NCBI GenBank assembly: GCA_030141605.1
Contig: JAQGDQ010000009.1
Span: 1,085,001-1,149,000 of the forward strand
DNA: 64,000 bases
Source: Tubiluchus corallicola
Lineage: Eukaryota; Priapulida; Priapulimorpha; Priapulimorphida; Tubiluchidae
Direction of reading: 5' to 3'
Below the pieces are notes generated by a model. That model did no database searches. It was not told the DNA's origin and saw only the letters and a list, made by a program, of their open reading frames with translations. This document shows positions 13,462-16,400 of this stretch, one piece after another. Position 1 is the stretch's first letter; each line of letters begins with the position of its first letter. A program made the position numbers and the translations under genes.

Positions 13462-16400
13462 CTGAAAAAACTCATATAGATTAGTAAAAATATGGCAATT
13501 TCAAAAGTTGTAACTGTAGGACTAAGAATCATAACAGCAGTAATTTAATTATTTTTAGACAGCTTTTATGCTTTTATTCATTATAAACAATTTTAATTTT
13601 AGTTTTTTATCTTATAACAAACAACTGAATTTGTAAAACTTAAAAATGGCTGTCATCTTTTGACGCCTTCTGCAAAACGTTTTGCAATCTTATTTCAAAA
13701 CATGAAACACCAAAATTAGAGAACACGATACCCGATTTACACTGGCAAGTTTGTGTCATACCAAGACCAGATTGTCAAAGCCAGCATTTACAGTGGTTAT
13801 GGAGCTTAATTCCTGTCCTATTGTAGCTATTAAATAAGTATACACAATAATGAAAAAAGGCTACAGAATAGAGAAATGCCAAATTTCACCTGTAAAGTCA
13901 AATGTTCTTGGTATGTACTCCTAATGTACTAACAATGCGGTGCAAACAATAGGCTTGGTGCCTGTTTGCACTGTACTCGCGGATAAAGAGATTCTCGACT
14001 CAGAACATTTCGAGTCTAAATCGAGTATTGTGCTTAGCTTTTAATGCACTTTGGCTAAACAGCAACACATTGATTCATTAAAAAAAATAAAAATTAACAG
14101 CATACTACATTTTCAACTTTTGGTAAGAATTATCACTGATTTAGTCACTGTATATTTAATCAAATTAAGGGATTGATAAGTTACAGCTGTAACAATTATA
14201 CACATCAAACACATTTGTACACACAAAACAGTACAAATTAAGCTGAAAAAAGTAATTTATTCTACCTGCAATGAACAACTATTGGCTCTTCATAGTTATG
14301 TGGCAGATGAGTTCTGACAGTTTGCACTAAGTTCAGAAGATGGTCAGTGTGGTCAGGGCAGCCAAAGTCAGGCCATGCAGTGAAATGTATTTGCTTTACC
14401 GAACGGAGCTCGCCTCCCTGCATGGTAGAATAAGTCATAAAAGAGTCGGACATAAACACATGCAGTGAGTGAAGAAGCATTAACTTGATCATTTAAGTGT
14501 GCAAGATTATTAGCAGAAAAGGTTAAAGAATTTTGGTAAAAAAAAGTCAAGACTGTCACAAGGACACGCTGCTTATCTGTATAATACACTATTGGTAAAA
14601 TTAGAAAGTGAAAATCTGCATGAAATCAAGAAGTTTGACAATGAATTTGTAATGTTTTACATTTATGCCACTATTTTGTATATTGCATATTATATCGAAT
14701 TAGTTGCTACATTGTTACACAGCCAGAATTTCTAATAAAATTCCCTTCAAAACTAAGCATACCAGGCAGTCTGGCAGAAGCGAGACAGTGTTACGCTATT
14801 CGTTTGTTAACACTATTTAACTTTACTATATGTTGAATGATTAGTTGTATTACACAGTTAGGCAAAAACCCTTATCCTGGAGTTATCCACACTTTTCCTT
14901 TCCATAATTTGTTTCCCATGTAATCTCAGATTACATTATAAAAACTGTGAATTATGCAGAGATGCAGATTTGCAGGAACAATGATGGTAATGCGATCATC
15001 CAGTAATGTTCAGCTTCATCCAGGGACCACATGAAGTGTATGTTACCTTTGTCTGTTGTCACTTATTACTTAACTAACTGTAAATTCTAGTCATGCATAT
15101 TATAATGTATTTTAGGTAATAGCATTTCAATTGAATGATTAGTGTTAGGATAACGATGACAGCAATGTCAGTAGTGTTAGTGTAGGTGATTAAAGTTAAT
15201 AGTCATGCACGTGCACTGAAAACACGCATGCAAGCACACAGTACCTGCAGTGCACCAATATCGGACCTGTCATTTCAATGGGACAATGCGTGCGCACTGA
15301 AGTAGCGAAATCTATCATTGCTTTTGTTGTTGTGGGGCAGCCAAAATCTGGCCAGCTGAGAAAATGGAACTGCTTCACTTTTAATGACTGCTCACCCTAT
15401 AGGATTCAGAAAGTATACTATACTACAAGTAATGTTGGATGAACACAACCAGCATAAAAAATACCCAATATCAAGTTCTATCATGTAGAAATTCAGCAAT
15501 AAATAAAATTATCACATTAAACTAATTATTATAGCAACGATTCAATCTTCACTCTGGGCAAATGCACAGAGAATGCCTTCGTTTGGGCAAAATTCTACAT
15601 CATTTCTCAGAAGAAATACTGGATAATACTGTTGTACAGGAACACAATGATAAAGCTTGTATAATTGCACTAAAAGAAAATGGTCATTCCGTATTCATAA
15701 AGTAGTCAAAATACCAACTCCCTACCTATTGTAAGACCCACTAATTTTTGGCACATTGCCAGAACAATTTATTTACTTTCATTAGATCAAGAATATACAG
15801 TCCAATGTATAAAATTAACACTAACTGGGGCAAGTAATAGAAAAAAGTAAAGCAACGCATTACCAATTCAAGAAGGAAGACGCGTATGGTGTGATCATTG
15901 AGCACAGATTCTGATACAGTTTGCACTTTCACATCTCCGTAAAATGACGGATCTGTCGGGTTAGGCCAATACTGTACACATTTAACCTGAAATGATTAAA
16001 CACACAGATAAACATAAAATATGTAGCATAAATTATCGCTAGCAACTGTCCAATTACTTTCATTTGATTAGAAATGACAACATTGCAATGAGAAACAAAA
16101 TCGTTTAATTTATCAAACGATTATGTAAAAAGGTCTAAAATTTTTACTGTTATGAATTAACTGACGATTACAATATTAATTCTGTTTCAAAAATAAATCA
16201 ACTGTGAAGACTTTACCCTCACAGACAAAGAGTGCATGCAAGTTCAGGAAGAAAAATGCTGTGCCCAGATGAATCCATTATTAGTTGTGAATCATAAACA
16301 CGTTATTGGGCACAGCTATGTAAAACAGGTGAACAAACAGCCTATGAACTAGCTCATTAATATTTACATTGATTATGTACATATCAGCAAATTGGATATG

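Follow-up and report, generated by a model that had tools for sequence, protein, structure and literature searches.

The 64,000-nt stretch of Tubiluchus corallicola DNA analysed here (contig JAQGDQ010000009.1, positions 1,085,001 to 1,149,000; the window) carries on its minus strand a gene for a receptor protein tyrosine phosphatase (PTP) in which one coding exon of the catalytic domain is present twice in tandem. The pair very probably stems from an ancient exon duplication in a receptor phosphatase of type R3, kept as mutually exclusive exons that swap active-site modules; mutually exclusive splicing is by far the best reading of the two copies, and the one gene probably gives rise to two enzymes with different active-site surroundings. 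Each copy would bring its own WPD general-acid loop, the helix that follows and the catalytic Cys, and splicing would pick one of these two modules on one receptor. The evidence for exclusivity is the genomic sequence of one genome, together with a frame argument.

Exon pair and reading frame

Exon A (5' copy) and exon B (3' copy) are each 152 nt long, are entered in phase 0 and left in phase 2, are preceded by AG and followed by GT, and cover the same PTP segment, from the WPD loop to the catalytic Cys (Table 1). Both join in frame to the constitutive exons upstream (15986-15864) and downstream (13461-13326), and either isoform alone gives a full-length match to PF00102 (273 and 274 bits). 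A first-pass annotation of the window had described two complete alternative catalytic segments, and its coordinates, lengths, phases, AG/GT boundaries and count of identical residues were exact. The copies are equal in length, compatible in splice sites and frame, and homologous, the three published criteria for predicting mutually exclusive exons (PMC3228551), and their position is internal as well.

With A and B both included, translation would meet a stop codon 19 nt inside B, 133 nt short of the junction of B with the next exon; with both skipped, the stop would fall 15 nt inside that next exon (13461-13326), 121 nt short of the end of the exon and its junction. By the usual 50-nt rule, a stop more than 50 nt before a junction makes a transcript a target of nonsense-mediated decay (NMD), so both products would be NMD targets. 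A phosphatase is predicted to be produced only with one copy at a time, and the annotation's claim that taking both or neither shifts the frame is borne out by the early stops computed for the two cases. Frame and NMD together would clear splicing errors.

Splice sites were scored with a position weight matrix from 79 sites called at homologous PTP exons of the same genome. The acceptors reach 1.5 bits in A (rank 6/79) and 5.0 bits in B (rank 14/79) vs 10.0 and 9.4 bits in the flanking constitutive exons, and the donors of the pair are ordinary to weak; each copy has the AG and GT that had been annotated, but the description of the acceptors as good was too generous. Weak acceptors are frequent in regulated exons. 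The start of exon A (15391-15396, minus strand) reads GGTGAG, a donor-like motif right at its own acceptor, and binding of U1 there could weaken the use of A.

Constraint and age of the two copies

The two copies are identical at 24/50 amino acids and 75/152 nucleotides. By codon position, identity is 27, 34 and 12 of 50 (first, second and third), so that third positions are at chance, that is, saturated, and second positions are not, a combination that is the signature of a long-maintained coding sequence; dN (NG86) is 0.61 and dS is undefined through saturation. Both copies retain almost every position that PTPs conserve, W, P, D, G, P, H and C among them.

Neutral decay of B was simulated and scored against a profile hidden Markov model (HMM) that combines two solved PTP segments with the remaining ones of this genome. 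At 0.1 substitutions/site, 1.25% of runs held the score of A with an open frame; at 0.2 substitutions/site or more, none of the 400 runs per level did. The simulation rules out drift for both copies and puts any neutral phase well under 0.2 substitutions/site. The codon-position pattern and the simulation together argue that both copies are under coding constraint, in agreement with the earlier view of an old duplication with both frames kept open.

Two rival explanations bear on this evidence. The main role of the second copy could be that of a poison exon, shifting the frame and lowering the amount of receptor through NMD (regulated unproductive splicing), as the NMD-type stop on joint inclusion and the weakness of both acceptors would allow; a poison exon has no need, however, of the PTP-specific constraint on W-P-D, G, P, H and C that both copies keep, and we consider this quite improbable. 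Somewhat less remote, yet still unlikely, is that one copy, most likely A with its weaker acceptor, is recently dead or was never spliced, leaving a single enzyme. The low rank of the A acceptor and the slightly closer likeness of B to other PTPs speak for it, but the frame of A is open, its AG and GT are compatible and its PTP profile score is kept, and the simulated limit leaves little room for a neutral phase.

As to age, the four constitutive stretches that the window gene shares with its paralogue L002 show 59% identity between the two genes. Identity is 48% between A and B, and 48-50% between these copies and the corresponding exon of L002. These figures suggest that the exon duplication is about as old as the R3 gene duplication in this lineage.

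Some points weigh against the interpretation as mutually exclusive exons of ancient origin. The acceptor of exon A is weak; a tree of 50 columns speaks neither for nor against a sister relation of A and B and does not resolve the order of the duplications; and, with regard to the regulator proposed below, TGCATG comes only second among the enriched hexamers of the A-B intron, and its count, noticed after the intron was read, is no more than suggestive.

Possible basis of exclusivity

Exclusive use of A or B would be set by splicing regulation acting on the two weak acceptors, backed by frameshift and NMD. A plausible candidate regulator, proposed from its motif, is an Rbfox protein on UGCAUG in the shared intron, which would favour A and repress B. 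The A-B intron holds four TGCATG vs 0.42 expected at the rate of the window (Poisson p 9.5e-4, noticed post hoc). Two of them follow A at +13 and +36 nt, one is mid-intron and one lies about 47 nt before B; none is present in the introns just outside the pair. Rbfox-like RRM exons are found at two places in the genome (79-92% identity). In Caenorhabditis elegans, RBFOX proteins control the exclusive exons of egl-15, with UGCAUG in the upstream intron and repression as the outcome, and of unc-32 (PMC3585155). An Rbfox switch favouring A is a real possibility, if the lesser chance. More doubtful still is the fuller proposal, in which a tissue-specific switch under Rbfox control selects between two enzymes that differ in rate or in choice of substrate, dates back to the R3 gene duplications of the lineage and is therefore shared by relatives.

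Other means of enforcement were tried and rejected. The annotation had suggested a search for paired intron elements; in the two intron pairs covered, out of three, the best duplexes reached -36.6 and -35.4 kcal/mol vs shuffled means of -38.9 and -40.2 kcal/mol, and only short inverted repeats were found in the introns, so that docking/selector pairing is no better than in shuffles. U2/U12 incompatibility was set aside, as no U12 donor or branch motif was found; steric hindrance by too short an intron, as the A-B intron has 827 nt; and an alternative terminal exon after A, as that intron contains no AATAAA or ATTAAA.

Possible functional consequences

The swapped piece comprises the residues beside WPD, the helix after WPD and the strand that runs up to the catalytic Cys; both isoforms share the P-loop Arg and the later Q loop. 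Loop dynamics tied to turnover are known to change with the sequence of the WPD loop, as seen in PTP1B/YopH chimeras (PMC11058592). The two isoforms would most likely differ in the dynamics of this loop and hence in rate or substrate preference. If so, the gene would amount to a natural experiment on the swapping of active-site modules, with two WPD-loop/helix modules tried by evolution on one PTP scaffold, and the pair would offer a direct in vivo test of whether WPD-loop dynamics matter for receptor signalling.

Host gene

The gene lies on the minus strand; it begins at about 45.7 kb or further out and ends at 12.158 kb. R3 phosphatases are defined by fibronectin type III (FN3) repeats, one PTP domain and a C-terminal YxN phosphorylation motif (PMC5336234). 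The gene has FN3 repeats and a single transmembrane (TM) segment, stops after a single PTP domain and ends in a YxN motif (YENV), features that together assign it to the R3 receptor tyrosine phosphatases, as first annotated. Among single-domain solved relatives, Drosophila Ptp10D comes closest to both isoforms, followed by PTPRB, and each of these two is an R3 member; two-domain chains outscore them only by summing two domains. A TM-like stretch at 29.47 kb was rejected as the translation of an intron after an FN3 exon, the true TM segment lying near 21.1 kb.

Table 1 Features of the R3 receptor phosphatase gene in the window, with the duplicated exon and its neighbours listed first. Positions are those of the window.
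Feature	Position	Strand	Remarks
Alternative exon A (5' copy)	15396-15245	minus	50 aa + AG; HMM 66.7 bits vs other PTP segments; weak acceptor
Alternative exon B (3' copy)	14417-14266	minus	50 aa + AG; HMM 71.6 bits vs other PTP segments
A-B intron, 827 nt	14418-15244	minus	TGCATG at 15232, 15209, 15097, 14464 (first bases, minus strand)
Constitutive PTP exon upstream of pair	15986-15864	minus	Ends in phase 0
Constitutive PTP exon downstream of pair	13461-13326	minus	Enters in phase 2; remainder of P-loop, SAGVGRSG
Extracellular FN3 repeats	26515-45651	minus	About ten, recognised exon by exon
Transmembrane segment	21050-21158	minus	Approximate limits
Juxtamembrane/PTP start exon	18610-18520	minus	DLGKISPKF...
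PTP exon	17322-17246	minus	DHSRVKLLP...
PTP exon	16843-16709	minus	
PTP exon	12983-12920	minus	
Last coding exon	12276-12158	minus	C-terminal EPIYENV and stop

Locus and other PTP genes

In a DNA search of the 343.5 Mb assembly, copies A and B have one home each. A single copy of the exon, with the same intron positions, is present in the other PTP genes found, among them the three R3-like loci of greatest similarity that were read (L001, L002, L006), and no doubled exon was seen in other PTP genes among the genome matches. Between 18.6 and 12.1 kb the window gene has no third copy and no further doubling of a PTP exon. An assembly error, or the collapsed remnant of a tandem second PTP gene, which the annotation had named as a way to refute its proposal, is therefore highly improbable: a convergent PTP gene does lie at the left edge of the window, but its homologous exon is only 28-33% identical, the assembly holds no second locus, no further PTP exon is duplicated, and 48% identity between the copies far exceeds allelic divergence.

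The neighbouring gene, L001 (9000-9770; genome C679:1084402-1085167, plus strand), is arranged tail-to-tail with the window gene and ends at window positions 12-167, plus strand. It has YVD instead of WPD and the P-loop HCSSGSGRTG, and is probably a weak or altered phosphatase; it can be likened to divergent R3 sequences with a changed WPD known in echinoderms and tunicates (PMC5336234). Elsewhere in the genome, tandem PTP domains lie in uninterrupted frames of 1237-1922 aa (C1923:537489-539054, C1543:60388-61956 and C2175:99239-100852), unlike the other PTP genes, which have many exons; these frames are possible retrogenes. Two PTP loci with identical scores and opposite orientation lie about 21 kb apart (C1992:260105-261476 and 281635-283006), with a near relative on C2203, and reflect either an inverted duplication of recent date or a palindrome in the assembly. 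The window further contains a single-exon open reading frame (ORF) with a Cupin_8/JmjC domain (56089-57453, plus strand), a single-exon ORF for a rhodopsin-family G protein-coupled receptor (7tm_1; 4584-5642, minus strand) and the start of a PRMT3-like gene with a C2H2 zinc finger (59222-59596, plus strand).

Comparison with known systems

Exclusive exons inside kinase domains are known from MAPK14 and JNK. Tandem-duplicated exclusive exons are a known kind; their setting in a PTP catalytic domain was not found described in the literature searched, that is, open full text, which leaves most subscription papers outside and is hence weak evidence. This agrees with the annotation, which knew of no R3 phosphatase with swappable WPD exons, and terms for alternative or mutually exclusive exons are absent from a paper on R3 evolution (PMC5336234). 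Human PTPRS, like the window gene a receptor PTP, is listed with a mutually exclusive exon cluster of unstated position in the protein (PMC5740500); it differs in belonging to a subfamily with two PTP domains. Drosophila Ptp10D and vertebrate PTPRB/J/O/H share with the window gene the FN3 repeats, one TM segment, one PTP domain, WPD and a C-terminal YxN (PMC5336234), whereas the window gene has its WPD exon doubled. The worm genes egl-15 (5A/5B) and unc-32 (7a/7b) likewise combine two alternative exons with a UGCAUG element in an adjacent intron, and in egl-15 this element precedes the exon that is repressed (PMC3585155), but they are not phosphatases, and their regulation is proven genetically where that of the window gene is motif-based only. 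Mouse Mapk14, Mapk9 and Mapk10 have alternative exons, used one at a time, inside the catalytic domain of a signalling enzyme (PMC1431701), as proposed for the window gene; those are kinases, whereas in the phosphatase described here each of the two exons holds both the general-acid loop and the nucleophile.
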